The translations under genes and the position numbers were made by a program. DNA of 64,000 nucleotides. Origin: an uncultured Bacteroides sp. GTDB taxonomy: Bacteria > Bacteroidota > Bacteroidia > Bacteroidales > Bacteroidaceae. This document shows, in pieces, positions 30,970-52,160 of this stretch; position 1 is the first letter of the stretch, and each line of letters starts with the position of its first letter. The notes beneath the pieces were generated by a model, which was given only the letters and a program-made list of their open reading frames with translations, made no database searches and was not told the DNA's origin. The DNA lies in contig CAAEFE010000041.1 of the NCBI GenBank assembly GCA_900755095.1, positions 1 to 64,000 on the forward strand, given 5' to 3'.

Positions 30970-30995
30970 AGTCCTCTTTTATTTTGTTAACCCCA

Positions 30996-31028
30996 CAAAA
31001 ATAATCAATCCAGCAACTCTATCTCAAA
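30996..31028 (-). promoter_or_regulatory. Promoter of the LytS/LytTR operon
   Basis: On the minus strand TTTG (31028-31025), 21 nt, then TATTTTTG (31003-30996), a good match to the Bacteroides -33/-7 consensus, 27 bases before the kinase start codon. Confidence 0.6.
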
Positions 31029-31136
31029 TAAGCCGATGAAACGGACAAAACAGTCGGTGAACCGCCATCTTTTTATAGATAAATGAAAATTCAGGTGGTA
31101 TATTGCATCCTCTTTTCATAAATAAACCTCATCGAC

Positions 31137-32342
31137 TTATTTTAATTTTCCCCGATAAAAGATTTCACCCAAAGTAAGAGAAAGTGTAGCACCTATAACG
31201 TCACGGTTTAATATCTCTTTTTTCAGACGTAACCGGTCATAAAAAATACCAATATTAATTCTTCCTCTAAATACGGGCAATCCTAGTCCGGCATTAAACC
31301 GTAAAGACACTCCGGAACTTCCATTGATCCTCATATAAGAGTTAGACAAATCAATTCCGGCTTTATAAGATACTTGTTTCCAAAAGCCATCAGAAGAATA
31401 ACCGTTAGGAAAATAACAAATGCCGACACGACATTCATTCACGTCTTGAAATTCAATTCGACTGTCTACAGACGTTAGAGAAGTATATTGCTGAAAAGTA
31501 TAATCCAACGCATAAGTCCATTTTTTATATTGTAAAGAACCGCCTATTCCAAAATATTGAGGTAAGCTTTGCTTCTGACTTCTTTGCTTCTTCTTATTTT
31601 GTGTTTTGTCATTTACAATGTATTTCTCATTAGTGACATCCATTTTCTGGCGATGGCCGTAAACAACCCCTAGTGTATAAGACAAATCATGATTCAATGC
31701 ATAGTGATATTGAACTCCCCCATTTGTATAAAGTGTCCTTGCGTGCATCTTCTTATCAACAGCCACGTCATTTTGTTGCTCTGACAATACAATGTTACCA
31801 AACAAATAACTAACATTTATTCCTATAGACCAATATTGGGATAACAGATAAGCATTTGACCAACTTATTTTTGAGATTCCTCCACTTCCAGTAAAAGCGC
31901 CAATATTACTCTCATGAGGATTTCCTTCTATAGGTTGAGAAGATTGGAAATAATAACCAACTGAACTATAAGGAGTCAGACTTACTGCTGTATACCACCG
32001 TGGAATTACCCGCCCACCCAATATCAAAGCAGAAAAACTTCCAGTAAACGCCCGATTAGAGCTGCCTTCAGAAGTGCACGATTCATTTTTGGCAAAAATT
32101 GCAAGTTCTGTTAGAAGCCGTTTACTGTCTAAGGCTGTCAATCCTGCCGGATTTTCAATGTTCATCAGTACATTATTCCTCATTCCGTAAGCAACTCCAC
32201 CCATACCTGCATTCTGTCCATAAAGTCCGTTTTGCAGTTCTCCGATGCCAAACATAGAATATGGCGATGAAGTCATTACGTTTTGTGTCTGTGCCTTTAG
32301 TGTCATTAATAAAAGAAGAATCAGGCAATTAATAGCTTTCAT
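31137..32342 (-). CDS. Outer membrane beta-barrel protein
   Basis: 401 residues with signal peptide (CLILLLLMTLKAQTQ) and a beta-barrel pattern of alternating residues. The start of the mature protein, SSPYSMFGIGELQNG...AGMGGVAYGMRNN...NIENPAGLTALD, is typical of a FadL/PorV-like Bacteroidetes family. Its start overlaps the end of the DUF4270 gene by 14 bases (32329-32342), so the two are translationally coupled and probably act together at the outer membrane. Ligand unknown. Confidence 0.75.
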   Translation of the reverse strand: MKAINCLILLLLMTLKAQTQNVMTSSPYSMFGIGELQNGLYGQNAGMGGVAYGMRNNVLMNIENPAGLTALDSKRLLTELAIFAKNESCTSEGSSNRAFTGSFSALILGGRVIPRWYTAVSLTPYSSVGYYFQSSQPIEGNPHESNIGAFTGSGGISKISWSNAYLLSQYWSIGINVSYLFGNIVLSEQQNDVAVDKKMHARTLYTNGGVQYHYALNHDLSYTLGVVYGHRQKMDVTNEKYIVNDKTQNKKKQRSQKQSLPQYFGIGGSLQYKKWTYALDYTFQQYTSLTSVDSRIEFQDVNECRVGICYFPNGYSSDGFWKQVSYKAGIDLSNSYMRINGSSGVSLRFNAGLGLPVFRGRINIGIFYDRLRLKKEILNRDVIGATLSLTLGEIFYRGKLK

Positions 32343-33648
32343 ATATTTTGTAATTTAATTGAAGAGTTATAGGATGTTGACCTTTAGTATCACTAAATGT
32401 CAGATTTCTCAATGTCTTGGTATAATCATCACTATTAAATACTAATTGAAGATTATGCTTGTATTTTCCAGAAGTTCCCAATTCATCTTTCATGAATTGC
32501 GTAACATCAAAATAATAGTATGTATTTCCAAGAAATACATCATCCTTCACTAATTTCCCTCCTTGTACTTGCTTTCCCAAATAATCTTTAACAGCATCAG
32601 TGACTACATTATTTTCGTCTGCTATATACAGGAAAATGCTATCCGGCAAGGTATTATATCCTGAATAAGTACCATATTCAGGATAGATTCTCAATCCTGC
32701 TTTTTCTATATGCACATATTCACCTTGCTCCATTATATCATTAAGATAAGGAAACTCAAGGCGGGTATACCATCCGATACCAGCAAATAGCACTCCTCTG
32801 TTTCCTAATTCTGCAGAAGGTATCTCTACCTTTTTCCATGGATATGTTTCCATGGGAGTATCATGTCGGTCATGTTGTAATTGATTGAATTGTGTTGCTG
32901 TATTCGGTGAAAAAAACAATTTCTGATGATTCTCATAACCACTTTCAATATGATAATGTAATATCAAAGCTGACAATGAATCTGCTACCTGAAAACCTAA
33001 TAATGAGTAACTTTGCTGTTCATCAGGAATGATAACAATTCCTTTAAAATAGTCTTCAAAATGATTCACGGCAACCGACTCATCATGGTTATGGAATCGG
33101 GTCAGCAAATCTTTCCCTAACTTATCCGGCAAGCGTATCTCTAGTTTTTCAGAGGTTCGGGGTCTAGGTATAAAAGAATAAACAGTCAATGGTTCGGGTT
33201 CATAAGCAAATGAAGAGTTATTATACAAATAACCATTGTCATTCAATACAACTTTTTCAGATAACAAATGAATGGAATACCGTTGCTGTTGAGTAGTATC
33301 ACCAACAAAATTCTTATTAGTGGAAAGCAACAATATCAATGAATCAAACTGCACTGTCACATCCGATTCCGTTGAATATTGAGGACGCAAATAAGGGATA
33401 TAACTGGCAGCAGAAATGCTCCCCCATAACGGATGCATGTATTTTCCAGCCAGTACGACTTGCTTTCCTGAAGTTTCTAAAGAGTCAATTAAGACAGCAG
33501 TCACCGTGATGGAACTCGTATCCATACTTATATTACGTAAATCAGAATCGACTAATCTATTTCCGAAAGTATTATTTTCATCATAACACGATACTATGGA
33601 GCAAAATATTATAAAGTAACAGCAAACAACAACCAACAATTTATACAT
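32329..33648 (-). CDS. DUF4270-family lipoprotein
   Basis: 439 residues. Signal peptide with a lipobox-like Cys (FIIFCSIVSC). The body shows the DUF4270 pattern: GNRLVDSDL near the start, VLAGKYMHPLWGSISAASYIPYL, DSLILLLS and a C-terminal YYFDVTQFMKDEL...LQLVFN. Family function is not established; members are surface or envelope lipoproteins in Bacteroidetes. Divergent from the kelch gene with a 243-base gap to the preferred kelch start, and coupled to the OMP gene. Confidence 0.8.
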   Translation of the reverse strand: MYKLLVVVCCYFIIFCSIVSCYDENNTFGNRLVDSDLRNISMDTSSITVTAVLIDSLETSGKQVVLAGKYMHPLWGSISAASYIPYLRPQYSTESDVTVQFDSLILLLSTNKNFVGDTTQQQRYSIHLLSEKVVLNDNGYLYNNSSFAYEPEPLTVYSFIPRPRTSEKLEIRLPDKLGKDLLTRFHNHDESVAVNHFEDYFKGIVIIPDEQQSYSLLGFQVADSLSALILHYHIESGYENHQKLFFSPNTATQFNQLQHDRHDTPMETYPWKKVEIPSAELGNRGVLFAGIGWYTRLEFPYLNDIMEQGEYVHIEKAGLRIYPEYGTYSGYNTLPDSIFLYIADENNVVTDAVKDYLGKQVQGGKLVKDDVFLGNTYYYFDVTQFMKDELGTSGKYKHNLQLVFNSDDYTKTLRNLTFSDTKGQHPITLQLNYKIYESY

Positions 33649-33891
33649 ATTGCATTTTTGACTGCAAAAGAGAGGATAACTCTTCGTATATACAATTTTA
33701 ACCCGTCAATCAATCTATATCTTCCGGTAATAAACTATTTGTGAAGGTGAAATAAGTATTAAGTGCTGTCAAATCATTCGCCTGCCATTACACTGAATTA
33801 ACGGCCTAAATTTATATACTTACCGATTCTATTTGCCCAACATATGAAAGCCCTGTTCTTTTGTAGCCGTAAAATAATAATATTATATATG

Positions 33892-34890
33892 ATGAAACAT
33901 TTGAATTTATTTGTATTCCTGATAACTGTGATTTCTGTTATCACAATTTCTTGTAGTAGTGACGAGGAAGATGATTTGATGGGTAAATGGTATCGTGTAT
34001 CCGATTTTGACGGATTAGCACGCGGAGAAGCAACCTCTTTTACAATTGGTAGTAAAGGATATCTGACTGGTGGTTATGATGGTAAAAAACATCTGAATGA
34101 TCTTTGGGAATATGATATGGAGCTTGACTTTTGGACACAAAAGGCGTCTTTCCCAGGAACCTCTCGTAGCTCTGCTGCTGCATTTTCTGTCGAAAATAAA
34201 GGGTATTTCGGCACAGGCTACAATGGGAAAGATTACTTTAATGATTTTTGGGAATATAATCCGGATACAAATACATGGAATTCTAAAGCAGATTATCCGG
34301 GAAGTGCTCGTAATGATGCCATAGCATTTGGATTATCGGACAAAGGATACTTAGGTAGTGGTTACAATGGAAATTACTTAAAAGATTTCTATACTTACAA
34401 TCCATCTACCGACTCTTGGGAACAAATAGTTAGCCTAGGTGGCAGTAAACGTCGTGGAGCAGCTTGTTTTGTTATAGACAACATTGCTTATGTCTGTGCC
34501 GGATTCAATAACGGTGAATATGTTAAAGATTTCTGGAAATACGATCCAGTCCAAAAACGTTGGATTCAACTTCGTGATATTGCAGACACATCAGACGCAA
34601 CATACGATAATAAGTATAACAGTATAGTACGAATCTATGGAGTTGCTTTTGTTATTGACGGACAAGGTTATCTAACATGTGGTGGTACTCCCGATTTGCG
34701 CACTAATACATGGAAATATACTCCAGATACAGATTTATGGGAAGAGGTTGCTAATTTTAAAGGTGCTCCCCGTACTGCAACAGCTTCTTTCTCTAATGGA
34801 AACAAAGGTTTTATTGTTACAGGTAGGAGCAATAATTATCGTTTTGATGATATTTGGGAGCTTCATCCGTATGAATATGATGAATATTAA
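33892..34890 (+). CDS. Kelch-repeat lipoprotein
   Basis: About 332 residues from the Met at 33892; the frame opens at 33844, but the signal peptide and lipobox (VISVITISCSSDEEDD) fit the later start. Six kelch-type blades follow (patterns GYLTGGYDG...NDLWEYD...FWTQ, GYFGTGYNG...NDFWEYNP, and so on), enough to close a beta-propeller. Envelope-anchored binding protein by inference. Its end overlaps the next gene by 20 bases. Confidence 0.85.
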   Translation: MKHLNLFVFLITVISVITISCSSDEEDDLMGKWYRVSDFDGLARGEATSFTIGSKGYLTGGYDGKKHLNDLWEYDMELDFWTQKASFPGTSRSSAAAFSVENKGYFGTGYNGKDYFNDFWEYNPDTNTWNSKADYPGSARNDAIAFGLSDKGYLGSGYNGNYLKDFYTYNPSTDSWEQIVSLGGSKRRGAACFVIDNIAYVCAGFNNGEYVKDFWKYDPVQKRWIQLRDIADTSDATYDNKYNSIVRIYGVAFVIDGQGYLTCGGTPDLRTNTWKYTPDTDLWEEVANFKGAPRTATASFSNGNKGFIVTGRSNNYRFDDIWELHPYEYDEY

Positions 34891-35236
34891 AACCGGAAAC
34901 TACATACTTTGGGTTAGTCTACTATCACTATTGATTATCATTCTTCTTCATCAGTCAATTATAGTAATTGAGGATGAAGAAGAATCCAAAGCTAGATTAG
35001 AAATATTTCAATCCCCAAAGGGATGGGGATATCAAATTATTATGGGACAGAAGATTCTTATATATCAACCGACCATTCCAGCTATTGACACTGTTATGCC
35101 TTTCCCTGATGAAATTAGTACACGGAAGATAGGTATACTGGTCTTAAAACGATTTAACGAACATCGCAACTTTTCTGTTTCAAAGGAGGAAGTTTACCAA
35201 CGTTTACCTTCATGTTATAATGTAATAGTAGAGTGA
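34871..35236 (+). CDS. DUF4907-like membrane-anchored small protein
   Basis: 121 residues from the first of three closely spaced Met codons (MNMMNIKTG; 34871, 34877, 34880). One N-terminal hydrophobic segment (YILWVSLLSLLIIILLH) is followed by a small domain (GWGYQIIMGQKILIYQPTIPAI, RKIGILVLKRFNEHRNFSVSKEEV). I recall DUF4907 proteins beside kelch proteins in Bacteroidetes and this fits, but I cannot verify it. Translation is coupled to the kelch gene by the 20-base overlap. Confidence 0.65.
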   Translation: MNMMNIKTGNYILWVSLLSLLIIILLHQSIIVIEDEEESKARLEIFQSPKGWGYQIIMGQKILIYQPTIPAIDTVMPFPDEISTRKIGILVLKRFNEHRNFSVSKEEVYQRLPSCYNVIVE

Positions 35237-35815
35237 TTTTTTAGTCACTAATAATTTCAAAGCAGAAACTCCAACTAAGATTTACGGAGATTCAGAAAAT
35301 GATATGTTACAATTTTAATTAATATATTTGATAAATTCACATCAAACCTTTTTTATAAAGATAATTCACTTCCACAAAATACGCTCTAAATCAATTATAA
35401 AATAAAAGAACGATATGGGTGTGATCAAACATAAATACCATCTATGCTCCAATGGAACATAGATAATCAAGCCCCATTTACTTATTTTACTACACATGTA
35501 ATTTAACAAGAAATTCTTTCATTATTACAAATTGGGGTGATGAACATAACTTCATAACCCGATTTTAGAAAGATCATTTATTCCTTTAAAACCAACGAGG
35601 TGTTTCTCGGTGTGCAACGGGTCGTTCCTTTAAAAGGAACGACCCGTTGGTTTTAAAGCAAAAATCAGTTATATAACTACCTAATAACCAACATATTGTA
35701 TTTGTTTGTTTCGAGCCACTTTCCGAAAGAAAATTCACAACACAAGCAAAAAGGATGTTAGTGCCAAGCGTGGCTATTCGTTAATAAATATTTTACAAAT
35801 TAAATCTTCTCATCA
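35237..35815. other. 579-base intergenic region with nested hairpins
   Basis: Apart from the inverted repeats at 35584-35658 I see no gene. The ORF open from 35706 overlaps the better frame starting at 35816 and is not supported. Confidence 0.55.
35584..35658. repeat. Two mutually exclusive inverted repeats
   Basis: CAACGGGTCGTTCCTT (35615-35630) pairs perfectly with AAGGAACGACCCGTTG (35634-35649), a 16-bp stem with a 3-nt spacer. CTTTAAAACCAACG (35584-35597) pairs perfectly with CGTTGGTTTTAAAG (35645-35658). Bases 35645-35649 belong to both, so an RNA could fold only one way at a time, as in an attenuator. A terminator or a mobile-element end are alternatives. Confidence 0.6.
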
Positions 35816-36304
35816 ATGGTTACAGTTACTTTTTCGATCAAGCCCTACCTGGCGGCTTATATGTACGTGCGCTTCAAAAATCATATCGACTCGCCTCCCA
35901 ACGTCCCTTTATCTTCTTCCTCACATTCACCTATTCACCTTCTCGACACCCAACCTATTTATCACTTCCTCCATCAGCTCTCCGTCCCCCACCCTCCAAA
36001 TGTGTCTTGGCACGAAACCGGAAATATAACTTTCTCCCTTCCCCATCCAAGATATGGCAAAAATCCAAATATATACAATTATATAGGTCACGACAGCGTA
36101 CTTGTTATAGAAAAAGAAATAGAAGTGGAAATGAAAGCCGAACTCTACGAATTCCTTCTGGAAAATAAATACTGCCACGGTATCATGTTCAAAAGATCCA
36201 TGGAAACTTTCGTCGAACATTATAATATGGTAGAGCTAGTGGAAGAAGAAAGTTTGATGAGGGCGTTTCAGAGGTGGAGAAAGATGGTAAAAGAGGAGAA
36301 GTAA
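35816..36304 (+). CDS. Hypothetical protein, 162 aa
   Basis: I do not recognise a named family. The protein starts MVTVTFSIKPYLAAYMYVRF, has a proline/serine-rich stretch (~28-60), a conserved-looking middle (SLPHPRYGKNPNIYNYIGHDS) and a helical acidic C-terminus (EEESLMRAFQRWRKM). I have an impression of similar small proteins in Bacteroides mobile regions. It is followed by 476 bases without a gene, so it is probably a single-gene unit at the left edge of the defence island. Confidence 0.55.
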   Translation: MVTVTFSIKPYLAAYMYVRFKNHIDSPPNVPLSSSSHSPIHLLDTQPIYHFLHQLSVPHPPNVSWHETGNITFSLPHPRYGKNPNIYNYIGHDSVLVIEKEIEVEMKAELYEFLLENKYCHGIMFKRSMETFVEHYNMVELVEEESLMRAFQRWRKMVKEEK

Positions 36305-36780
36305 ATGAAGTACCTTAAGCTATATTCCAACATAGCTCTTTATGAATATATTTCAATACAAAGATTTGAAAATCAGATGTATCTTCCTTTTTCAAGATTA
36401 ACAGTTTGCTACTCACTTGAGAAGATAGAACGAGTAGTATAATTATCATTCATTTAAACAACATTACCTATGAAGAATAAATATCTATTTCCATAATACA
36501 GTTTCATGTTTTCTCATCAAATATAAATTCATATTACTAACAAGTAGAATATATTGTGTGTCATATTGATTTTTAAGAAATTATATTTTGTTCAGTTCAT
36601 ACATTGATAGCCTTATAAATTGATGTCTATTTATAAGGTCATTGATTTACAATTATATCAGCAATCAATCAAAATACAAAACATTTTAAAATGTCCGAAA
36701 TATGAAACTAAATTAGCTAGGAATACTTTAAAAAAATAATTATCTTTGTGCAATACTGAATAATTTATAAAATCGCAATA
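36305..36780. other. 476-base AT-rich region upstream of the Argonaute gene
   Basis: Very AT-rich. Holds an inverted repeat CCTTATAAAT/ATTTATAAGG (36611-36620 with 36629-36638) and the candidate promoter at 36741-36748. No gene seen. The drop in GC continues into the Argonaute gene and suggests horizontal acquisition. Confidence 0.55.
36741..36748 (+). promoter_or_regulatory. Candidate -7 element of the SIR2-Argonaute gene
   Basis: TATCTTTG, perfect TAnnTTTG, 33-40 bases before the start codon at 36781. No TTTG at the expected -33 distance. Confidence 0.45.
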
Positions 36781-39700
36781 ATGGAAAAAGATATAACTCT
36801 TGAATACGCGGCTTTTTTAAGATCTTTTAAACGAAATATTGATGTACCACATTCGTTCCTTTTAGGTGCTGGGGCTTCTATAAGTTCAGGGGTACAATCT
36901 GCTTATGATTGTATTTGGGAATGGAAAAAAGATATTTTCTTATCAAAAAATGTAAATTCATCAGAATATTACAAGAATTTCAAGGATAATGCTGTTAGGA
37001 AAAGCATTCAGAAGTGGCTAGATAATGAAGGTGGTTATCCTATATTAGATTCCCCCCAAGAGTATAGTTTTTATGCAGAAAATGCTTATCCTATTGCAGA
37101 AGATAGAAGAAAATATTTTTTTAGTCTCATAGAAAATATAGAACCTTACATTGGGTATAAGTTACTTTGCCTTTTAGCGGAACATAACATTGTTAAATCG
37201 GTGTGGACCACAAACTTTGATGGGTTAATCGTACGTGCAGCTCATCAGAATAGATTAACTCCTATCGAAATAAATTTAGATAATGTAGATAGAATTTATC
37301 GAAATCAAAGCTCTAAAGAACTCTTGACTATTGCCTTGCACGGGGATTATAAGTTTTCTACATTAAAGAATACTGACGAAGAACTAGACACCCAAAATGA
37401 AACCTTTAAAGATCACTTATCTAATTATCATATAGATAAGAACATGATAGTAATTGGATATAGTGGTAGAGATAAGTCTCTTATGGATGCTTTAAAAGAA
37501 ACTTTCACAAAAAAAGGATCAGGTCGTCTATACTGGTGTGGGTATGGAGAAACCATCAATTCTGAAGTCTCAGAATTATTGTTGACTATTAGAGCGTCAG
37601 GAAGAGAAGCTTATTATGTGGCTACTGATGGTTTTGATAAGACGATGATTCATCTTTCAAAATCTGCTTTTGAAGATAATCCAATTATTTCATTACAAAT
37701 AGATGAAACATTAAAAGATATATCTGAAAATGAACTCCATAATACAGATTTCACTTTAAATGTAACTAAAACAGACAAGTATATAAAAAGTAATCTTCAT
37801 CCTATTATTTTTCCCAAAGAGGTTTTTCAATTTGAAATCGATTATGGAAATGAAAAACCTTGGAGTTTTTTGCGAATGCTTACAAAAGAGACAAATACTT
37901 GTGCTATTCCTTTTAAAAAGAAAGTCTTTGCGTTAGGAACATTGAGTGAAATAAATGCTACATTTAAAAACTATCTTAGAAGTGATATTAAGCGTGAAGC
38001 TATTTCTAAAAAAGATATAGAAAATGTTGGAGCATTTAGGGCATTAATGCTACAGGCTGTCTTAAAGTATTTCACACATGACCCAAATATTGAGTCAGAT
38101 AATAAAGATAAACTTTGGATGAAGTCGTCAGAACGCAATATTGGAAATATATCAATTCACAAAGCATTATCCCTATCGTTATTTTTTAGCAACAATAACG
38201 ATTATGCTTATTTATCATTCTCTCCTACTGTCTATTTAACTTCTCCAGAGGAGATAGGTATAAAAAAGAAACAGGAAATCAGTAAGAAATTATTAGAAAA
38301 GCTCTATAATAATAAATATGATGAATATCTATCTTTATGGAATACTTTATTATTTGAAAATAAGCGATTGAAGTTTGAATATCCATTATGTTCAGGAACC
38401 GGATTTGAGTTTCAAATTTCCTGTAATTCTGCTTATGGTGAAATCAATGTCTTGGATTCTAATTTTAGAACATATAGCCTCCCATCTTTCGATAAGAGAA
38501 AAGCTCCATTTAAGGGAGTACAGTTCTTGGAACCTCAATTAGTATTCCGAAGCAAAGTAAATGATAACGAATCTCGAGACTATCATCCAATGCGAGGATT
38601 AACTAGTAATAGACCTTATGATGTAATTCTAAATGGAAGAATTTACTCTAACGAAATTAATTTATCTGTGATTTGTGGCCAAAAGTATTCTAATGCTTTT
38701 TACTCATTTCTATCACAATTACAAACAAAACATTTCACAGGAAATATCAATCCAGACTACTTGATTGATTATCCAGGGTTTACTTCTATTTTTAATATAC
38801 CTATCAACGTTCCTTACTTTGAAGATAAAGACAATTGGTATAATTTAGATTTCCAAAATGACAATAATCTAGAGGCTCATAAAAATGCTCTTCAACTAGC
38901 TAGACTTATCACTTCAAAAATTGACCAAATAGCAAATACTCATACACAGAGTACAATTGTTATATTCATCCCTGAAGAGTGGAGAACTTTTGAGAGTTAT
39001 ATATACAAAGGTGAAAGTTTTGATCTACATGACTATATAAAGGCGTTTGCTGCCTCAAGGGGTATTTCAACACAATTAATAAGAGAAGATACATTAAATG
39101 ACAGTTTAAAATGTCAGATTTATTGGTGGCTTTCTCTCTCATTCTATGTTAAATCATTCAGAACCCCATGGATATTAAATAATCAAGAAAAAAACACAGC
39201 TTATGCAGGCATAGGATACAGTATTTCTAAAATTCTAGATAAACCGGAAATTGTTATTGGATGTAGCCATATATATGATTCTAACGGACAAGGATTAAAA
39301 TATAAATTATCCAAAATTGATGACTATTATTTAGATAAACATTCAAATCCATATTTATCATATAATGATGCTTTTCAATTTGGAGTTTCAATAAGAGAGT
39401 TATTTTACCAATCTCTGGACAAGCTTCCAGAGAGAGTTGTAATACATAAACGAACAAAATTTACAGAAGATGAAATAAATGGAATTAAAACCAGCTTAAA
39501 TAAGGCTGGTATTCATAGAATCGATTTGATTGAGATTAACTATGAGTCAGATGCTCGTTTTTTGGCAATGCGTGTTGATAATCAAGCACAAATGCTGCAA
39601 GCAGATGGGTTTCCTATTTCGAGAGGTACCTGTATTTTGACAAATAAGAACTCTGCACTGCTTTGGACACATGGAATAGTTCCTTCTGTTAGACAGAATA

Positions 39701-39945
39701 ATTACAAATTCTATTTAGGCGGAAGGAGTATTCCAGCTCCTCTTAAAATTACCAAACATTATGGTGATAGTAATATTAACACTATTGCTTCTGAAATCCT
39801 AGGGTTAACTAAAATGAATTGGAACTCATTTGACTTGTATTCTAAGTTACCCTCTACTATTGATTCCTCCAATCAGATCGCTAGAATAGGAAAATTGTTA
39901 TCTCGATTTGAAGGAAAAACTTATGATTATAGGCTTTTTATCTAA
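36781..39945 (+). CDS. Single-chain SIR2-APAZ-Argonaute (short pAgo fusion) defence protein
   Basis: 1054 residues. N-terminal SIR2 domain (1 to ~290): GAGAS (29-33), WTTNFD with N145, HGD with H187, and GYSGRD (226-231); the Asn and His match the NAD-hydrolysing residues of SIR2-associated short Argonautes. An APAZ-like middle (~330-560) follows, then MID-PIWI (~560-1054): HDYIK...RGISTQ...SFYVK for 5'-end guide binding, RVVIHKRTKF and the C-terminal LTKMNWNSFDLYSKLPST. The slicer tetrad is not evident, as expected in short pAgos. Length equals SIR2-APAZ (~570) plus short pAgo (~480), so this is a one-polypeptide form. Known related systems sense invading plasmid or phage nucleic acid with RNA guides and deplete NAD+, killing the cell. 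Strongly AT-rich. Confidence 0.9.
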   Translation: MEKDITLEYAAFLRSFKRNIDVPHSFLLGAGASISSGVQSAYDCIWEWKKDIFLSKNVNSSEYYKNFKDNAVRKSIQKWLDNEGGYPILDSPQEYSFYAENAYPIAEDRRKYFFSLIENIEPYIGYKLLCLLAEHNIVKSVWTTNFDGLIVRAAHQNRLTPIEINLDNVDRIYRNQSSKELLTIALHGDYKFSTLKNTDEELDTQNETFKDHLSNYHIDKNMIVIGYSGRDKSLMDALKETFTKKGSGRLYWCGYGETINSEVSELLLTIRASGREAYYVATDGFDKTMIHLSKSAFEDNPIISLQIDETLKDISENELHNTDFTLNVTKTDKYIKSNLHPIIFPKEVFQFEIDYGNEKPWSFLRMLTKETNTCAIPFKKKVFALGTLSEINATFKNYLRSDIKREAISKKDIENVGAFRALMLQAVLKYFTHDPNIESDNKDKLWMKSSERNIGNISIHKALSLSLFFSNNNDYAYLSFSPTVYLTSPEEIGIKKKQEISKKLLEKLYNNKYDEYLSLWNTLLFENKRLKFEYPLCSGTGFEFQISCNSAYGEINVLDSNFRTYSLPSFDKRKAPFKGVQFLEPQLVFRSKVNDNESRDYHPMRGLTSNRPYDVILNGRIYSNEINLSVICGQKYSNAFYSFLSQLQTKHFTGNINPDYLIDYPGFTSIFNIPINVPYFEDKDNWYNLDFQNDNNLEAHKNALQLARLITSKIDQIANTHTQSTIVIFIPEEWRTFESYIYKGESFDLHDYIKAFAASRGISTQLIREDTLNDSLKCQIYWWLSLSFYVKSFRTPWILNNQEKNTAYAGIGYSISKILDKPEIVIGCSHIYDSNGQGLKYKLSKIDDYYLDKHSNPYLSYNDAFQFGVSIRELFYQSLDKLPERVVIHKRTKFTEDEINGIKTSLNKAGIHRIDLIEINYESDARFLAMRVDNQAQMLQADGFPISRGTCILTNKNSALLWTHGIVPSVRQNNYKFYLGGRSIPAPLKITKHYGDSNINTIASEILGLTKMNWNSFDLYSKLPSTIDSSNQIARIGKLLSRFEGKTYDYRLFI

Positions 39946-40003
39946 AAAATATGATATTAGAATTACTCCAGAATGTATAATAAACAAATAATAAGAAATA
40001 ACC

Positions 40004-40573
40004 ATGGACAGAAGTTTACCAGTATTGTTAAAGCGTTTCTCGCCAGCAAATGATTTACAAACATTATCGGTGCAATTTACAGAAATAGCAAGAGCAGCTT
40101 TGTACGGAGGTTATTTTGTCGTTAATAAAGATGAATATCATATTTATCTGTTAGATATAGAATTCTATTTCCACAGCGAAGAAACAGATGGGATACATGA
40201 GCCTAAAATGTACCATAAAGGTAATCTGCCTTTCTTTCCCAAAGGTACACTTTGGCCCCATTTATCGGGAGTGGATGTAACTTTTGAGGATGATGAATAC
40301 CAAAAGTATCGGGCTTCCTTCTTGATCCGTGGCTATAAATATATTGGAAAGGATGGAGAGGAATACATCAATGGTACAGATGATTTTCACCCACAACATT
40401 TATGGGAGGACCTGTTTGGTAACGCTTCTTTTCTACGCCCCAGTGGTTTAACCATAAAATGGCAATCGAATATATATTCTGAGGATGAACCACTCATTCA
40501 GTCTGCACGTATAAGAATGCCACAGTATGAAAGTGAAAACGAGCCTCACCCATGGAGGTTTTCTAAAAAATAA
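40004..40573 (+). CDS. Unknown 189-aa protein behind the Argonaute gene
   Basis: Not recognised. Soluble, no signal or membrane segment. Central block with many aromatics and conserved-looking acids: YLLDIEFYFHSEE, YHKGNLPFFPKGTLWPHLSG, VDVTFEDDEYQKYRASFLIRGY, ending PHPWRF. The G..W(P)HxSGxDxTF...RG pattern hints at an enzyme active site (His, Asp), but I can name none. It starts 58 bases after the Argonaute stop and 48 bases before the DUF5655 gene, all in one direction, so an operon is likely. Higher GC than the Argonaute gene, so it may have a different origin. Confidence 0.6.
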   Translation: MDRSLPVLLKRFSPANDLQTLSVQFTEIARAALYGGYFVVNKDEYHIYLLDIEFYFHSEETDGIHEPKMYHKGNLPFFPKGTLWPHLSGVDVTFEDDEYQKYRASFLIRGYKYIGKDGEEYINGTDDFHPQHLWEDLFGNASFLRPSGLTIKWQSNIYSEDEPLIQSARIRMPQYESENEPHPWRFSKK

Positions 40574-40621
40574 TATATAGTTAAGAAAGTCTGAATCCGC
40601 AAAACAATTCAAAATAAAATT

Positions 40622-41533
40622 ATGGCACTTTACAAATATAATACTTCAGGCGTCTTTTCTGAAATAAAGGAAAAGCCTTTTAAATTGGAAAGAGATATTC
40701 AACGCATGTTTGAAACCAATATGTCCGAAATCATGGGACTTGAAATGATAAAGTCCGAATTTACGATCAAAGACCGCCGTATTGATACGCTTGCCTTTGA
40801 TCTTCAATCGAAGGCTTTTGTTATCATTGAATATAAGAGGGAAAGAAACTCCAGTGTCATAGATCAAGGGTTTACTTACCTAAGCCTAATGCTGCAAAAT
40901 CAGGCTGATTTTATTCTGGAATATAATGAAACACAAGCTAGGAACTTGAAACGGAATGATGTGGACTGGTCGCAGACAAAAGTCGTTTTTGTTTCACAAG
41001 GATTCACGCCTAACCAACGAGAAGCCGTCAATTTCAAAGATTTATCCATTGAATTATGGGAAGTGAAGCGCTATGAGAATGATAGTGTTTCCATCACTCC
41101 TATTCGCAAAAGTCACGCATCGGCAAGCATTAAAACAGTGATGCAAAATAGTCCGGAATTTAAAGAAGTGACAGAGAAGATTAAAGAATATTCCGAGGAA
41201 AATTTGTTAAAAGGAAAATCTGACGATGTTGTAGAATTATACGAGAGTTATAAGAATGCAATTCTTAATTTGAATACAGAAATTGAAGTTAAACCACAAA
41301 AATGGTATGTTTCATTCAAAAAGGCCAACAGCCATATTTGTGCACTTGAAATCCAGAAAAATGGAATAAAGCTTACTATAAATGTGAGCAAAGGACATTT
41401 AGAAGATAGTAAGCAATTAACAAGGGATATTTCAACTGTCGGACATTTTGGTAATGGAGATTATGAACTCAAAATCTCGGATACTAAATATTTAGAATAT
41501 ATCATGAGTCTTGTGAAGCAAGCGATTAAATAA
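40622..41533 (+). CDS. PD-(D/E)XK nuclease-like protein with DUF5655 domain
   Basis: 303 residues. N-terminal half (20-150) resembles NucS/DUF91-type nucleases: RIDTLAFD with D55 and FVIIEYKRE with E70 and K72 make a D-E-x-K active site. The C-terminal part (~195-303) matches the DUF5655 pattern (VELYESYKNAILNLNTEIEVKPQKWYVSFKKANSHICALEIQKNGIKLTI...DISTVGHFGNGDYELKI). Members are common in defence islands and are often annotated as hypothetical or DNA-binding nucleases. It could be a third component of an Argonaute-linked unit or an independent gene; sequence alone does not decide. Confidence 0.75.
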   Translation: MALYKYNTSGVFSEIKEKPFKLERDIQRMFETNMSEIMGLEMIKSEFTIKDRRIDTLAFDLQSKAFVIIEYKRERNSSVIDQGFTYLSLMLQNQADFILEYNETQARNLKRNDVDWSQTKVVFVSQGFTPNQREAVNFKDLSIELWEVKRYENDSVSITPIRKSHASASIKTVMQNSPEFKEVTEKIKEYSEENLLKGKSDDVVELYESYKNAILNLNTEIEVKPQKWYVSFKKANSHICALEIQKNGIKLTINVSKGHLEDSKQLTRDISTVGHFGNGDYELKISDTKYLEYIMSLVKQAIK

Positions 41534-41600
41534 ATATGGCTAATTATTGTAACATAGTAAACCCCGATAATCCACTTCTGTAGATTGCTACAAAGAGCCG

Positions 41601-41632
41601 TTTTCTTCAAGAAAAGAGCAAAAATATATTTG
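41601..41632 (+). promoter_or_regulatory. abiEi promoter with overlapping inverted repeat
   Basis: TATATTTG (41625-41632) is a perfect TAnnTTTG. The T-rich TTTTC (41601-41605) sits near -33. TTTTCTT and AAGAAAA (41601-41607, 41609-41615) form an inverted repeat around one base at that spot. AbiEi antitoxins are known to autoregulate by binding inverted repeats in their promoter, so this is a candidate operator. Confidence 0.45.
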
Positions 41633-41651
41633 TACATATAAAAAGAATAGT

Positions 41652-42236
41652 ATGGATGACAAATTGAAACATCTGATAGAACAGAATAAGGGATATATAA
41701 CCCGCAAGCAGATCATCGGTAACCGTTATCTGTATTACCAGTTATTAGAATCGGTAAAATTGGGTGAGATTATCCGCCTGAAGCCGGGTGTGTACTGTAT
41801 AGATGATGCAATGGCAGAAACTATGATTGACCTTGATAAAATAGTACCGGAAGGGGTATTGTGCCTCTACTCCTCATGGGCACACTATGGACTCACGACA
41901 CAGATACCCCAAGGCTTTTATGTGGCCATACCAAGAAAAAAGAAAGTTATTTTACCTGACTATCCCCCTATCATCCTTAATTATTGGGACAATTCCATCT
42001 ATACCATTGGAATTAAGCGTGAACGAATAGGCGGAATCGAGGTATCTATCTATGATATGGAAAAATCAGTCTGTGACGCCCTTCGTAACCGTAACAAAAT
42101 CGGTATCGATGTCAGTTCCGAGATTTTGAGGAATTACCTGTCACGTAAAGAACGTAATATCACCCAATTAACGAGTTATGCCAAGTCCATGCGGATAGCT
42201 GGAATACTTAATAACTATCTGGAAATTCAACTATGA
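41652..42236 (+). CDS. AbiEi-type antitoxin/transcriptional regulator
   Basis: 194 residues. N-terminal winged helix (MDDKLKHLIEQNKGYITRKQIIGNRYLYYQLLESVKLGEIIRLKPGVY), then the AbiEi body (CLYSSWAHYGLTTQIPQGFYVAIPRKKK, ISIYDMEKSVCDAL-like segment). This is the antitoxin half of type IV toxin-antitoxin systems; it represses its own promoter and neutralises the AbiEii nucleotidyltransferase. It appears intact and overlaps the toxin start by 4 bases (ATGA, 42233-42236). Confidence 0.9.
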   Translation: MDDKLKHLIEQNKGYITRKQIIGNRYLYYQLLESVKLGEIIRLKPGVYCIDDAMAETMIDLDKIVPEGVLCLYSSWAHYGLTTQIPQGFYVAIPRKKKVILPDYPPIILNYWDNSIYTIGIKRERIGGIEVSIYDMEKSVCDALRNRNKIGIDVSSEILRNYLSRKERNITQLTSYAKSMRIAGILNNYLEIQL

Positions 42237-42541
42237 CAAAAGAAAACAAAGACTACGGTAAATCCATAAAAGCGAAACTTCTGAATCTATCGAAAGCGGA
42301 AGGGCTTTCTTACCAGCCATTACTGATACACTACATGCAGGAACGCCTTTTATACCGACTTGCACAGAGTAAGTACAAGCACTGTTTTTACCTAAAAGGT
42401 GGCGCATTACTTTATGCCCATGAACAATTCAAGGCACGCCCGACATTGGATATAGATTTTCTGGGGAACAGTATTGCTAATGACAAAAAGATAATAGAAG
42501 AAGATTACTTAAATAATATAAGGGCCAACATTTATCAGTAA
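42233..42541 (+). pseudogene. Truncated AbiEii nucleotidyltransferase toxin
   Basis: 102 residues remain of a protein that normally has about 220-300. The catalytic start is there: KGGALL (GG at 56-57) and RPTLDIDFLG (D73, D75). From about residue 87 the frame leaves the family pattern and stops at 42541, nine bases from the end of the oppositely oriented nuclease-like gene. The C-terminal half is missing, so it is probably not an active toxin. The restriction-modification block begins exactly here, which suggests that its insertion removed the toxin. Confidence 0.75.
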
Positions 42542-42549
42542 ATATCTGT

Positions 42550-43491
42550 CTAACTGCGAGCAGCAATTACCTGAGATATTTTTTCAATAACCTTTTTGTA
42601 TTCATTATCTGATTTATCGGCAGGTAATTCAAAGATAAAACTATCAGTTGCTCGCAAACTAAAGGCATTACCTTCTATTACTTCCAATTTCCATTGTTGC
42701 TCAATATATGTTTGAGTTGGGTAATAAAGAACAAAAAATAAAATACGACTATTGGATTTAGAAGCCAAATAATCCCTTAATAAGGCCAAGCGTTTATACT
42801 TGCGCCCGTCAGGACGTGGATAATAGTTTGTGAAACATTGCTCCGAGATAGGACTGGATAATGTGTGTTTCTTAAATTCAAGAATGCAAACCGCTTTATT
42901 ATCTTCATTCAAAAGTAGAAGGTCTGCATCACCCGGATATAAACTATCTGTCTTAGACAAACTGCATTCTAACCTTGAGGTACCATAGATAAGTCCTTTG
43001 GAACCTATTGAAACAGGACCTCCGGAATGAGACTTTATCAGCTCTTTAAATTCTGACAAGCTATATTTTTGAGGAGAAAAGCTATAATGCCCTTCCTTGA
43101 AGAATAAAGAGACAATTAGCAACTCATTTCTGTCGTTGGACCAATCCAAATCATCATGAAACACAATAAATTGAATTTGCATATCATATTCTGTTGCGAA
43201 CCGTCCTAGTCTGCATAGATAATCTTTACCAAATTCTTTTTCCATTTCAAAGTCCAACTTACCGATAAATTCATCATAAGTATAGTTAGGCAATAGTATT
43301 CTTTTAATCCAGACATAAGGAGAAATTTGATTAATCGCCCAATCAACGAAGAAATCGAAAGTCAAACCAAACGTATTAGACTTGGATAATATATCATTAG
43401 ACAGCCAAGCCTCCGGTGAGCCACTCATTATATTTGTTTTAGCTAGACAAGCCCTATTGTCGCAACGTGCTAAAAATGTTTTCTGTAACAT
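42550..43491 (-). CDS. Probable PD-(D/E)XK restriction endonuclease
   Basis: About 313 residues from the Met at 43491; the frame extends 32 codons further to 43587, but that extension is rich in rare hydrophobic residues and lies in the divergent promoter. Active-site-like segment YPGDADLLLLNEDNKAVCILEFKKHT with D188/D190, E205 and K207 (numbering from 43491). No family name recognised. It is divergent from two DNA methyltransferase genes and next to them, so a type II-like nuclease of the same system is the best guess. Confidence 0.6.
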   Translation of the reverse strand: MLQKTFLARCDNRACLAKTNIMSGSPEAWLSNDILSKSNTFGLTFDFFVDWAINQISPYVWIKRILLPNYTYDEFIGKLDFEMEKEFGKDYLCRLGRFATEYDMQIQFIVFHDDLDWSNDRNELLIVSLFFKEGHYSFSPQKYSLSEFKELIKSHSGGPVSIGSKGLIYGTSRLECSLSKTDSLYPGDADLLLLNEDNKAVCILEFKKHTLSSPISEQCFTNYYPRPDGRKYKRLALLRDYLASKSNSRILFFVLYYPTQTYIEQQWKLEVIEGNAFSLRATDSFIFELPADKSDNEYKKVIEKISQVIAARS

Positions 43492-43612
43492 AAGCGTAGT
43501 TATCTTTATATTCAAAGTTTCAAAAATCAGACAAAGATAATCAAATCGAATATATACTCTTCGAAATATGAAATGAAAAAGATTCATTCATACCATTATT
43601 TCATATAATAAA

Positions 43613-43644
43613 TTTGGGAGATAATCCTATTATTTCTACTTTTG
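43613..43644 (+). promoter_or_regulatory. Promoter of the methyltransferase operon
   Basis: TTTG (43613-43616), 20 nt, TACTTTTG (43637-43644): a full match to the Bacteroides -33/-7 consensus, 29 bases before the methyltransferase start codon. Confidence 0.7.
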
Positions 43645-43672
43645 ACAGAAAATGACAATTTAAATATTTAAT

Positions 43673-44662
43673 ATGCAAACCATGGGTTCTACATCCAAAG
43701 ATATAAAAGAGAAAGATAAACGATTGTTAGAAGGAGTCATACAAAAAAAGAAAAAACAGCAGAAAGGCATTAAACCTTTTGTAAACAAAGTCATTCAGGG
43801 CGACTGTCTGAACATATTGCCATCCATTCCTGATAAATCCATAGATATGATACTTTGTGATTTGCCGTATGGTACCACACAAAATAAATGGGATTCCGTG
43901 ATTGATTTGCAGGCTCTTTGGGCTGAATACGAACGTATTATTAAAGATAATGGGGCAATCGTTTTAACTGCACAAGGTATTTTTACAGCCAAATTGATTT
44001 TAAGCAGGGAGAAATTATTCAAATACAAGATTACCTGGATCAAGTCAAAACCGACCAACTTTTTAAATGCCAAAAAACAACCGCTTCGTAAGCACGAAGA
44101 TATTTGTATTTTCTATAAAAAACAGCCGGTGTACAATCCGCAAATGACTAAAGGGGAAGCGTATGATAAGGGGATCAGAAAAGATCAATATACAGGAAGT
44201 TATGGAGAGTTCAAGCCACAGCATGTAAAAAGTGATGGCGAACGTTATCCCAATGATGTGGTATTCTTTGAGGAGGATCATGACGACTTTGTATATGTGA
44301 AAACGGCTGAATCGGAAGGAGAAGTTTATCATCCGACACAAAAGCCTGTTGAATTGGGTAGATATCTAATCAGAACATTCTCTAACCCGGGGGATATCAT
44401 TCTGGATAATGCTTGCGGAAGCGGCAGTTTCCTGCTGTCGGCCATTCTGGAAAACAGAAGATTTATCGGAATAGAAAAGAATGAAGATGTATTATTGCAC
44501 AGAATACAGCCTACTGACTATATCAAGATTTGTATGGATAGGATTTCAGAAACACTAAAAAGAGAAGAAGTGACTCCATCGACTCGCAAACTTTTCAAAA
44601 AACCAATCACAAAATATCACACCTTAAACTATTTAGAAACGGATGCCACAAATCAACTATAA
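43673..44662 (+). CDS. Site-specific DNA methyltransferase (N4-cytosine/N6-adenine, beta type)
   Basis: 329 residues; the second Met at 43682 is an equally good start. Motif IV DLPYG (63-67) comes before motif I (DNACGSGSFL, near 245-254), and HPTQKPVEL before that marks the beta-class order. AdoMet-dependent methylation of a DNA amino group. It overlaps the next gene by 20 bases (44643-44662), so the two are translated together. It could be the protective methylase of the divergent nuclease gene. Confidence 0.9.
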   Translation: MQTMGSTSKDIKEKDKRLLEGVIQKKKKQQKGIKPFVNKVIQGDCLNILPSIPDKSIDMILCDLPYGTTQNKWDSVIDLQALWAEYERIIKDNGAIVLTAQGIFTAKLILSREKLFKYKITWIKSKPTNFLNAKKQPLRKHEDICIFYKKQPVYNPQMTKGEAYDKGIRKDQYTGSYGEFKPQHVKSDGERYPNDVVFFEEDHDDFVYVKTAESEGEVYHPTQKPVELGRYLIRTFSNPGDIILDNACGSGSFLLSAILENRRFIGIEKNEDVLLHRIQPTDYIKICMDRISETLKREEVTPSTRKLFKKPITKYHTLNYLETDATNQL

Positions 44663-47426
44663 TGAAAGAAGTTGGGCCATTGATGTGATTAGCGAAATCA
44701 ATCTTTACCTGGCTAACAAAAGTTGGCATGTAAAAAGTGCCGGAGGAGAGAATACAATCAGAAATGAAAAATCGAGTTTATTTCCGGATGTGCTTATCTT
44801 CAAAGACTCTGCTAAAAAGATAATTTTGCAGGGATGGGAACTCAAAATGCCTGATACCCCTATAACCGACACGGAATTAATAAATAACGCCAAGATAAAA
44901 TCAGAGATACTGCACAATAATAGTTTTATTCTTTGGAATGTGACAAGCGCAGTTTTGTATGTTAAGAAAGGGAATACATATTCTATCTTGAAATCATGGA
45001 ATAGTATCGACCTTCATTCGCGTTCAGAGGTGAAAGAAAATGAGAATCTTTGGAAAGATCTTCTACATACCATTCTGGAAGATTTAAATGATTATTTCGA
45101 GCATGGAGAAATAACTGAAAGTGGATCTTCCGAGATATTGGCAATTGATAAAATAATCGATATCGTTCTCGAAAATATAGATTCGACAGCAGAAAACATA
45201 AAAGAGAATATAAAAAGTAGTGCAGTACTCGATGCGCAAATAGATAATTGGTGGCTCTCTTCTGCAGCAGAATATGGATTTAGCTCGCAAGCCCCAAAAG
45301 ACGCTAAGCATAAACTGCCCACTCTATCAAAGGTTATATTGACCGACTGGTTTTTCAAGATTATTTTTGGCAACATTATCAAACGGCATTTCAATGAGGC
45401 AAAGATTATTGAAACAATTACTTTCGATACAACTGTCAGTGAAGCCCTACAAATAATAGCCAACATCTCGGAGCACTGTAATTTTTGGAATATTTTTGGG
45501 AATAATATCGCTAATGAATTAGTATCTGATAATGCATGGAAGCAGCTAGTTCAATTAAATGTATTTCTTTCAAACCTTAATATTGAAGGGGTTGATATTC
45601 AAATCTTGCAAAACTTACTGCAATCGTCCATCGCCTATGCCAAAAGAAAAGTGGCCGGACAATTTGCGACTCCTCCTCAACTAGCCGATTTATTAACAAG
45701 GCTAACGATAGATAAAAAAGATGGAATTACCCTCGACCCTTGTTGTGGAACGGGAACTATTATTAAGCAGGCTTATTCTCTTAAAGAAGAATATGAAATT
45801 GGTCAAGAGCAAATTATTGAGAGTATCTGGGCTTCGGACAAACATTCATTTCCTATCCAGCTATCAACACTGACCTTATCCAATCCCGGCAATATTGGAA
45901 AAGTTCTGCATATCTTCAGGTCGGATGTAATTGAGTTGCACGCAGGACAAACTATTGTATTTAAAGATCCCAATAATGGAAATCAAGTAGAAAAGCAACT
46001 GCCTAAGGTAGATTATATCATATCTAATCTTCCTTTTATAAGAGAGAAAGAGATCAAAAAGCTCAATCCGAATATAAAGGAAATCAATAAATTAATCAAG
46101 GAACAGACTAAAGCGAAAAAGACACTAAGTAAAAAGAGTGATATATTTGCATATATTCCTTTCTACTTGTACGACATTATCTCAGACAATGGAAAAATTG
46201 GATTAATACTTTCTAATGCATGGCTTGGAACAGACTATGGAGAAATATTCTTAGAGTTAATTCAAAAATATTTCAATATTGACTGTGTTGTTATTTCCGG
46301 GAAAGGACGATGGTTCAATAATGCAAAGGTTGTCACCACATTATTAATAGCAACCAAGAGGGAGATTTCTGATCCGGTAAATTTAGACAGGAGAATTTCT
46401 TTCTGTACATTAAAAGAGAAACTTGAGAACATAGCAGATATTAAGAAATTAAGTAGTGAAATCATTCTTAATAAAGAGTCTGATTGGGTCAATATTCAAT
46501 CTTATTCAATAAATGAAATCAAACAATTGGAAAATATCGGAATCCCATGGTCCGGATATTTTGCTAATTTGAATTGGTTGCCTACGATAGCCGAGAAGCT
46601 TATTGACTCTAAAAAGTTTTTCGATTTTATACGTGGAGAAAGAAGAGGTTGTAATCGTATGTTTTATCCTGCAAAAGGACACGGAATAGAAGATGAATAT
46701 ATTGAGCCTGTTCTAAAAAACTTAAAGAAAGCATCTTCATTCATTGCAACTAGTCAGACGCAGGCTTTCTGTTGTTCAAAAAGTATCGAAGAACTCGAAA
46801 CTTTAAATCATACCGGGACTCTGAATTGGATAAGATCTTTTGAAAACCAAATGGACAAAACAAATAAGAAGCTATTACCTATAGCTTTACGTAAACCAAA
46901 TATGTTTTGGTATGAAATGAGCACAAAAAACATGGCAGATTTTGTCGTTAATATTAATTTCGACAAAAGTTTATTTATAGCCATGCTTGATAAACGTTCT
47001 TTCTTCGATCAACGGATGATTGGCTTTTCAATAAAGGAACAGTACAAAGATGAAAACAAGATTTTCCTACTTGCATTACTGAATAATATTTTGAGTATGT
47101 TTTTCATTGAGAGTTTCGGATTTGGCAGGGGACTGGGAGCACTTGACCTTAGAGAAACTAAATTCAAGAAGGATTTCAAGATACTCAATCCGGAGTTACT
47201 GTCTGATGCGCAAAAGAAAGAAATCATAAAAGCATTTCAACCTATTTTCAATAGAGACAGATTACCTCTTGAAAAGGAATTACAACAAAAGGATAGAATC
47301 GACTTTGAGCTGATGTTATTAAAGATCTATGGATTGGACAAGTACTATGATACAATAAAGCAGACTTTATTACATCTGTATAAAACAAGATTTGCAGTCA
47401 AAGAGAAAAAACGTAAAAAGGCATAA
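44643..47426 (+). CDS. N6-adenine DNA methylase with N-terminal nuclease-like domain (type IIG-like)
   Basis: 927 residues. The N-terminus holds a PD-(D/E)XK-like motif: FPDVLIF with D49 and LQGWELKMPD with E66 and K68. Residues ~330-620 are the gamma-type methylase core: QFATPPQLADLL, motif I DPCCGTGTI (~365-373) and motif IV SNLPF (~462), a variant of NPPF. A target-recognition-like C-terminus follows. Nuclease plus methylase in one chain is the plan of type IIG/IIL restriction enzymes. Yet it is fused by overlap to another methyltransferase and faces a separate nuclease-like gene, so it may be one part of a larger system. Ends at a terminator (47430-47464). Confidence 0.8.
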   Translation: MPQINYNERSWAIDVISEINLYLANKSWHVKSAGGENTIRNEKSSLFPDVLIFKDSAKKIILQGWELKMPDTPITDTELINNAKIKSEILHNNSFILWNVTSAVLYVKKGNTYSILKSWNSIDLHSRSEVKENENLWKDLLHTILEDLNDYFEHGEITESGSSEILAIDKIIDIVLENIDSTAENIKENIKSSAVLDAQIDNWWLSSAAEYGFSSQAPKDAKHKLPTLSKVILTDWFFKIIFGNIIKRHFNEAKIIETITFDTTVSEALQIIANISEHCNFWNIFGNNIANELVSDNAWKQLVQLNVFLSNLNIEGVDIQILQNLLQSSIAYAKRKVAGQFATPPQLADLLTRLTIDKKDGITLDPCCGTGTIIKQAYSLKEEYEIGQEQIIESIWASDKHSFPIQLSTLTLSNPGNIGKVLHIFRSDVIELHAGQTIVFKDPNNGNQVEKQLPKVDYIISNLPFIREKEIKKLNPNIKEINKLIKEQTKAKKTLSKKSDIFAYIPFYLYDIISDNGKIGLILSNAWLGTDYGEIFLELIQKYFNIDCVVISGKGRWFNNAKVVTTLLIATKREISDPVNLDRRISFCTLKEKLENIADIKKLSSEIILNKESDWVNIQSYSINEIKQLENIGIPWSGYFANLNWLPTIAEKLIDSKKFFDFIRGERRGCNRMFYPAKGHGIEDEYIEPVLKNLKKASSFIATSQTQAFCCSKSIEELETLNHTGTLNWIRSFENQMDKTNKKLLPIALRKPNMFWYEMSTKNMADFVVNINFDKSLFIAMLDKRSFFDQRMIGFSIKEQYKDENKIFLLALLNNILSMFFIESFGFGRGLGALDLRETKFKKDFKILNPELLSDAQKKEIIKAFQPIFNRDRLPLEKELQQKDRIDFELMLLKIYGLDKYYDTIKQTLLHLYKTRFAVKEKKRKKA

Positions 47427-47429
47427 AGA

Positions 47430-47464
47430 AACGAGGGTGCACTTCACTTTTGGACACCCTCGTT
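47430..47464. terminator. Convergent terminator
   Basis: AACGAGGGTG (47430-47439) pairs with CACCCTCGTT (47455-47464), followed by TTTCT on the plus strand and a T-run (complement of AAAGAA) on the minus strand. Serves the methylase gene and the regulator ending at 47477. Confidence 0.75.
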
Positions 47465-47476
47465 TTCTATACTCTT

Positions 47477-51365: not shown

Positions 51366-52160
51366 TTAATAAATTAATTTCTCCAACCATACATCGAGTT
51401 CCTGAAGCCATTCCTGTTTGTACACAAAGCTATCATTGTAACCAAATCCATGCCCTCCTGTAGGATATATATGCAAGGATATAGGAACACCAGATTTCTG
51501 TAATTGGGCAGCAAATTGTATTCCATTCTGGGGACTGACCACACTGTCATCTGAGGCAGCCACTATAAAAGCGACGGGTGTACTTGAAGTGACATGTTCA
51601 ATCGGTGAATATTGTACCATCTTATCCGGTGAATAAGAGTGACCAAACATCCGTTCACGGCAGGGAAGATGCGTTAAACGATCATCAATACTAACTACCG
51701 GGTAGATTAATATCTGAAAATCAGGCTTTTCCTTATCAGATAATATCGTAGCCGAACAAGTGGCCAAATATCCACCAATAGAAGCTCCCATTACTCCTAC
51801 CCGTTTGCTAAATTCCGGGAATTTTTCTCGTATAACTGCTAATGCCAACCGGATGTCCTGTCTAGGAATATCAGGATTTTCATGAGGCATTCTATATTTG
51901 AAAAGCACGTAAGTCATTCCCTTTTGGGTGAACCATTCGGCGAAATCAAGACCTTCATGTTCCAAATTGGTCTTTAAGAAGCCGCCGCCGGGACACATAA
52001 TAACACTGCTACCATTTGATTTTTCACTGGTAAAAACAAATAAAGTTCCTTCAGGAGCATTTTCCACTATCCCCATCAGCTCTTTATTATTCACTTCCGA
52101 CAAGTTATATACCTTCATCGATAAATTATCGTACAGGCTTACACAAATTAAATTCTTCAT
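51366..52160 (-). CDS. Alpha/beta hydrolase (esterase-like)
   Basis: 264 residues, or 250 from the internal Met at 52118. Oxyanion-hole loop CPGGGF (56-61), nucleophile motif GASIGG (S127), acid Asp in AASDDSVV, and His in GGHGFGY. This set matches acetyl/xylan esterase-like hydrolases. No signal peptide, so cytoplasmic. Its first start overlaps the preceding dihydroorotate dehydrogenase-like gene by 4 bases (ATGA at 52160-52157), which implies coupled translation and favours the early start. Substrate unknown. Confidence 0.85.

Follow-up and report, generated by a model that had tools for sequence, protein, structure and literature searches.

An intact single-chain SIR2-APAZ-Argonaute gene in a defence island of an uncultured Bacteroides sp.

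Introduction

Short prokaryotic Argonautes (pAgos) with a SIR2 effector have been described in two arrangements: SIR2-APAZ-pAgo fusions define clade S1A and the two-gene form defines S1B (PMC12205087), and the account of S1A as SIR2/APAZ fused to pAgo in PMC11156904 is concordant. TIR and nuclease forms are assigned to clades S2A and S2B, not to S1A (PMC12205087). In one branch, 106 short pAgos with APAZ were counted in 2018, and 102 of these also had SIR2 (PMC6299218). Here we analyzed a 64,000-nucleotide stretch of an uncultured Bacteroides sp. (assembly GCA_900755095.1, contig CAAEFE010000041.1, positions 1 to 64,000; hereafter the window) and the Argonaute (Ago) gene at 36781..39945. This gene is an intact yet ordinary copy of an already known one-gene defence protein. 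Its product is very probably an S1A short pAgo (SPARSA in one chain), a guided sensor of invading DNA that would act abortively by depleting nicotinamide adenine dinucleotide (NAD+).

Results

Domain anatomy of the single chain

The gene and its parts are as follows.

36781..39945, + strand: single-chain SIR2-APAZ-MID-PIWI short prokaryotic Argonaute, 1054 amino acids (open reading frame; PADLOC PDLC02384; PDB matches; AlphaFold2 model; structure matches)
36793..37680, + strand: SIR2 NAD+ hydrolase (NADase) domain, about residues 5-300, ends approximate (Pfam SIR2_2; GsSir2 match at 25-295)
37213..37215, + strand: N145 codon, counterpart of GsSir2 catalytic N142 (PDB-sequence alignment; conserved in 45/45)
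37339..37341, + strand: H187 codon, counterpart of GsSir2 catalytic H186 (PDB-sequence alignment; conserved in 45/45)
37747..38451, + strand: APAZ domain (N-L1-L2 equivalent), about residues 323-557
38497..39186, + strand: MID domain, about residues 573-802, with pocket residues H750, K754, Q765 and K791
39187..39942, + strand: PIWI domain, about residues 803-1054, predicted to lack slicer activity (structural match)

The open reading frame (ORF) runs uninterrupted from ATG to stop through 1054 residues. The SIR2 motifs named in the preliminary description were all found where it had placed them: GAGAS at residues 29-33, WTTNFD including N145, and HGD including H187. LYSKLP, which it had taken for the end of the chain, is present at residues 1019-1024, and the C-terminus lies 30 residues further on.

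SIR2, APAZ, MID and PIWI follow one another in this order within one polypeptide. The PADLOC pAgo profile PDLC02384 (1030 positions) covers residues 5-1054 with 1537.8 bits (E = 0); because it spans the whole chain, a full-length model of the SIR2-APAZ-pAgo architecture was already in a public library (2023). A phmmer search against the PDB matched residues 585-1053 to the Geobacter SPARSA pAgo (8in8_C, E 8.8e-58), which falls within residues 560-1054, where MID/PIWI had been expected, and the SIR2-APAZ partner of that pAgo was matched by residues 25-295 (E 1.2e-27). Structure comparison placed residues 3-557 onto SIR2-APAZ and 573-1054 onto MID-PIWI, so that profile, PDB and structure matches together bear out the earlier claim of SIR2 and MID/PIWI in one frame. 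The Pfam scan named SIR2_2 alone (residues 140-258, 40.7 bits, cut-off 24.5), and the NCBIfam scan of the protein gave nothing over family cut-offs. A chance match is excluded by the whole-length PADLOC match, the PDB matches and the catalytic pair conserved in 45 of 45 sequences. Since residues 3-557 are SIR2-APAZ and 573-1054 are MID-PIWI, no space is left for a canonical PAZ domain; the Pfam scan names no PAZ, which is weak evidence, since Pfam misses MID-PIWI too. The PIWI domain is predicted to be inactive by its membership in the short pAgos, which always carry substitutions in the PIWI catalytic tetrad (PMC6299218).

Catalytic and guide-pocket residues

Fifty-one loci were obtained in a genome collection from 64 pattern matches, most of them full-length single chains of about 1052 amino acids. 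Seven with a partial protein or broken frame (L018, L041, L043, L046, L047, L049 and L050) were dropped, and the window protein was aligned with the remaining 44. N145 and H187 of the window Ago align to N142 and H186 of GsSir2 from Geobacter sulfurreducens, so the SIR2 Asn-His dyad is present; both are kept in 45/45 sequences, and the description of the pair as intact was correct. Either N142A or H186A abolishes the NADase activity of GsSPARSA (PMC10781750). A guided sensor whose SIR2 domain acts mainly otherwise than by NAD+ hydrolysis, through nucleic-acid cleavage or ADP-ribosylation, would fit the older proposal that short-pAgo SIR2 domains are putative nucleases (PMC6299218); with the pair needed for GsSPARSA activity kept throughout the alignment and SPARSA NADase activity reported (PMC10781750), we consider this very unlikely.

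For the guide pocket, GsAgo was the only reference. Its 5'-phosphate contacts are H166, K170 and Q181 (PMC10781750; the paper prints K70, and the numbering K170 was taken from the alignment), which correspond to H750, K754 and Q765 of the window Ago. The 5'-phosphate pocket is therefore present, and these residues and K791 are identical in all 45 sequences. The GsAgo residues that contact the first two bases of the guide are D164, N184, R190 and N195, aligned with D748, R768, D774 and Q779 of the window Ago. Across the family, position 748 is D in 44/45 and position 779 is Q in 43/45; position 768 is R in 26 and N, the GsAgo state, in three, and position 774 is D in 33 and R, the GsAgo state, in none. 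As three of the four base-contact residues are unlike those of GsAgo, the guide-end preference may differ, and a preference different from that of GsAgo is a fair prediction from the alignment. More specifically, Bacteroidota S1A proteins might pick guides by a 5' dinucleotide other than the 5'-AU of GsSPARSA, a tentative proposal to which we give slightly less than an even chance. If it is true, the fused chain, with its phosphate pocket untouched, may draw on a different small-RNA pool.

Relatives and tree

The 51 loci are chiefly from Bacteroidota, and also from Rhizobium, Sulfuricurvum, Caldilineaceae and others; the closest Ago in the collection is that of Dysgonomonas sp. 511 (80% identical). 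The protein database held 1380 homologs at E <= 0.001, the weaker of which need not be single-chain; the best 120 of the 1380 are all at least 68% identical to the window Ago, and among the matches listed several are already labelled 'Protein argonaute' or 'SIR2 family protein'. The window protein itself belongs to a 90% cluster of 1106 member sequences. The preliminary description had called single-chain forms few, which does not agree with a named clade S1A, the SIR2-APAZ short pAgos already counted by 2018, or the full-length PADLOC model. The window gene adds one more intact member to a widespread branch.

In a MID-PIWI tree, all 45 single-chain rows lie on one side of a branch with 100/99 support, with the four two-gene SIR2 rows (L056-L059, on alphaproteobacterial plasmids) next to them, and the window Ago pairs with that of Dysgonomonas (100/99). 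The Sulfuricurvum row (Campylobacterota) is placed amid Bacteroidota, and rows of different families are mixed with one another; the Ago gene has thus moved often.

A 953-amino-acid version of the window Ago (P0122), known from one 42-kb contig, is identical over the aligned residues and lacks residues 102-202 in frame, so that N145 and H187 are lost. Either the deletion is an artefact of assembly or P0122 is a natural variant with a dead effector.

Proposed mechanism

By analogy with GsSPARSA and other short pAgos, a 5'-phosphorylated small guide would sit in MID, and the guide-target duplex would be held in a channel formed by APAZ and the presumably inactive PIWI. Pairing of the guide with invading single-stranded DNA would lead to assembly of an oligomer in which SIR2 is activated and hydrolyses NAD+. 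A cell that is infected or carries a plasmid would then halt growth or die before the invader spreads. The earlier view of the protein as a nucleic-acid sensor is supported by the domain anatomy, the PDB and structure matches and the conserved residues. As for the intact abortive-infection system that it had proposed, the intactness stands, and the mechanism is likely by transfer from SPARSA.

Several points weigh against this proposal. The guide and target chemistry is carried over from a relative only about 26% identical in MID-PIWI, in which the residues at three base contacts (N184, R190 and N195) are replaced in the window Ago, and NADase activity and an abortive outcome are predicted by analogy for the window protein and its close relatives. 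The AlphaFold2 model is least confident at about residues 189-198, 314-318, 619-621, 977-981 and 1015-1027, and the first of these stretches has the D of HGD as its first residue. In the MID-PIWI tree, long branches were flagged, the two-gene form is represented by four rows only, and none of the rows had been selected as a published reference for S1A.

Defence island and neighbouring genes

The following genes lie downstream of the Ago gene.

40004-40573, + strand: 189-amino-acid protein gene, no match in Pfam, PADLOC or NCBIfam
40622-41533, + strand: PDC-S18 candidate (PADLOC)
41652-42236, + strand: AbiEi
42233-42541, + strand: AbiEii, 102 amino acids, covering the first third only of the 294- and 299-position AbiEii models
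42550-43587, - strand: 345-amino-acid protein, candidate defence gene, no match in Pfam, PADLOC or NCBIfam
43673-44662, + strand: type II methyltransferase
44643-47426, + strand: type IIG restriction-modification gene

The PDC-S18, AbiEi, AbiEii, methyltransferase and type IIG genes alongside the Ago gene agree with the defence-island setting described before. A Kelch-repeat gene borders the island on one side; on the other come an AraC-type regulator gene and, farther on, sugar-utilisation genes. A tRNA search at the window found none, and a Pfam scan of 30 of the window's ORFs, a subset, gave no conjugation gene. The 102-amino-acid AbiEii adjoins a whole AbiEi and ends just ahead of the opposite-strand gene. 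The 189-amino-acid neighbour has 190 homologs, and among the matches listed two named ones are from Phocaeicola coprophilus.

The Ago, 189-amino-acid and PDC-S18 genes are on the same strand with gaps of 58 and 48 bases, and a relative of PDC-S18 is likewise present in L007, apparently a 303-amino-acid ORF about 1.1 kb downstream of its Ago. This would suit an Ago that works together with one or both neighbours in a multi-gene system. Among the ORFs of the 51 loci, some on short contigs with little flank, the 189-amino-acid gene has a relative in none and the PDC-S18 gene in one, so an obligate companion gene was rejected and such a system is highly improbable. No partner gene is widely shared: when the ORFs of the loci were clustered, the widest neighbour cluster (among the 20 widest with at least four members) reached 8/51 loci. 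One six-member cluster consists of relatives of the type IIG gene (L007, L015, L017, L021, L026 and the window). Least probable of all is an inert or decaying Ago copy carried passively in the island, which the decayed look of AbiEii and the deletion in P0122 might suggest, but the window Ago has its full length, has kept all the catalytic and pocket residues that were tested and belongs to the large 90% cluster described above.

The dihydroorotate dehydrogenase of the window (52157-53194) has as its nearest named relative an 84% identical protein of 'uncultured Bacteroides sp.'. For a 3.7-kb flanking stretch, the top match by E-value in 393 genomes from the order of Dysgonomonas sp. 511 was 73% identical. 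The genus Bacteroides, named in the preliminary description, is not established by these comparisons and by the Ago relatives. In P0244, P0256, P0270, P0289 and P0290, a 99-100% identical piece of this enzyme is joined to unrelated domains of rhamnosidase, AraC, FecR and GH127 types (by Pfam accession), which looks like chimeric assembly of contigs of this species.

Base composition and mobile carriers

The Ago gene has a guanine-cytosine (GC) content of 31.2% (22.7% at third codon positions, GC3), compared with 39.3% for the window. The claim that it is far more AT-rich than its surroundings is right in that it is the lowest point, but the adjoining genes are low as well (34-40% at 40004-47426 and 32-37% at 29767-33648), and about 28-48 kb of the window is AT-rich throughout. 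Among 42 related loci (left out were the seven dropped above plus L011 and L035, which lie on short contigs), the AT content of the Ago gene exceeds that of its flanks in 33 and falls below it in nine, with a mean GC difference of -2.6 points. This pattern fits a mobile AT-rich gene and gives no transfer date. AT-richness alone, from which transfer had been concluded, is no proof of a recent event, but mobility of the family is shown by its tree and by the mobile elements around some relatives.

Several neighbour clusters are conjugative-transposon genes by comparison with L012, the sole locus scanned, in which NCBIfam confirmed TraG, TraJ, TraK, TraM, MobB and MobC. At least nine of the 51 loci have the Ago near genes that cluster with those of L012: a TraG-type gene in L009, L010, L012, L023 and L025, and mobilisation-type genes in L001, L019, L022 and L035. 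A 101-amino-acid gene of one cluster has its start about 250-290 bases from the Ago and points away from it in L009, L010, L012 and L023; in L025, it follows the Ago on the same strand. The site adjacent to the Ago in these loci is a possible cargo hotspot.

Megablast of window positions 33500-48500 against plasmids gave no match. Relatives of the Ago protein occur in 118 of 72,556 plasmid records, all less than 60% identical and only three covering 80% of the protein in one place. A search of 50,697 phage records gave four matches. The best is a partial relative (L062, 5443-7287; 58% coverage, 48% identity) that extends to the end of an unverified 7.3-kb faecal 'Bacteriophage sp.' contig; in the remaining three, the match is limited to roughly a quarter of the protein, at the SIR2 end. 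A viral contig from IMG/VR (L052, 8001-9749) encodes residues 463-1054 at 54% identity. From these weak leads, the family may at times be carried on phages or prophages.

Comparison with known short-Argonaute systems

With guide binding, target sensing and NADase in a single gene, the fused form is handy for studying how short pAgos choose guides and become activated. None of the 14 PDB sequences matched is a single chain of the SIR2-APAZ-pAgo kind, the longest being 706 residues; a solved structure of the fused form thus seems to be lacking. A fused PgSir2-Ago was reportedly studied by Zaremba in 2022. The S1B form, with separate pAgo and SIR2-APAZ genes, was rejected for this locus, which has one ORF.

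The locus of Galbibacter orientalis (Joostella marina) DSM 19592 (L034) encodes the four domains in a single chain of 1052 amino acids, 73% identical to the window Ago; the protein, probably the JomAgo of the literature as judged from the strain, shares the catalytic and pocket residues, and no class-changing difference was seen. The SPARSA of Geobacter sulfurreducens (GsSir2-APAZ/GsAgo; PDB 8in8, 8jkz and 8y80) has the same domains in the same order, and its N142/H186 and H166/K170/Q181 have counterparts in the window Ago. It differs in consisting of two proteins where the window has one, in a MID-PIWI sequence that is about 26% identical, and in its guide-base contacts N184, R190 and N195, compared with R768, D774 and Q779 in the window Ago. 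In SPARTA (TIR-APAZ/pAgo) and SPARDA (nuclease-APAZ/pAgo), the effectors are TIR and a nuclease, whereas the effector encoded in the window is SIR2.
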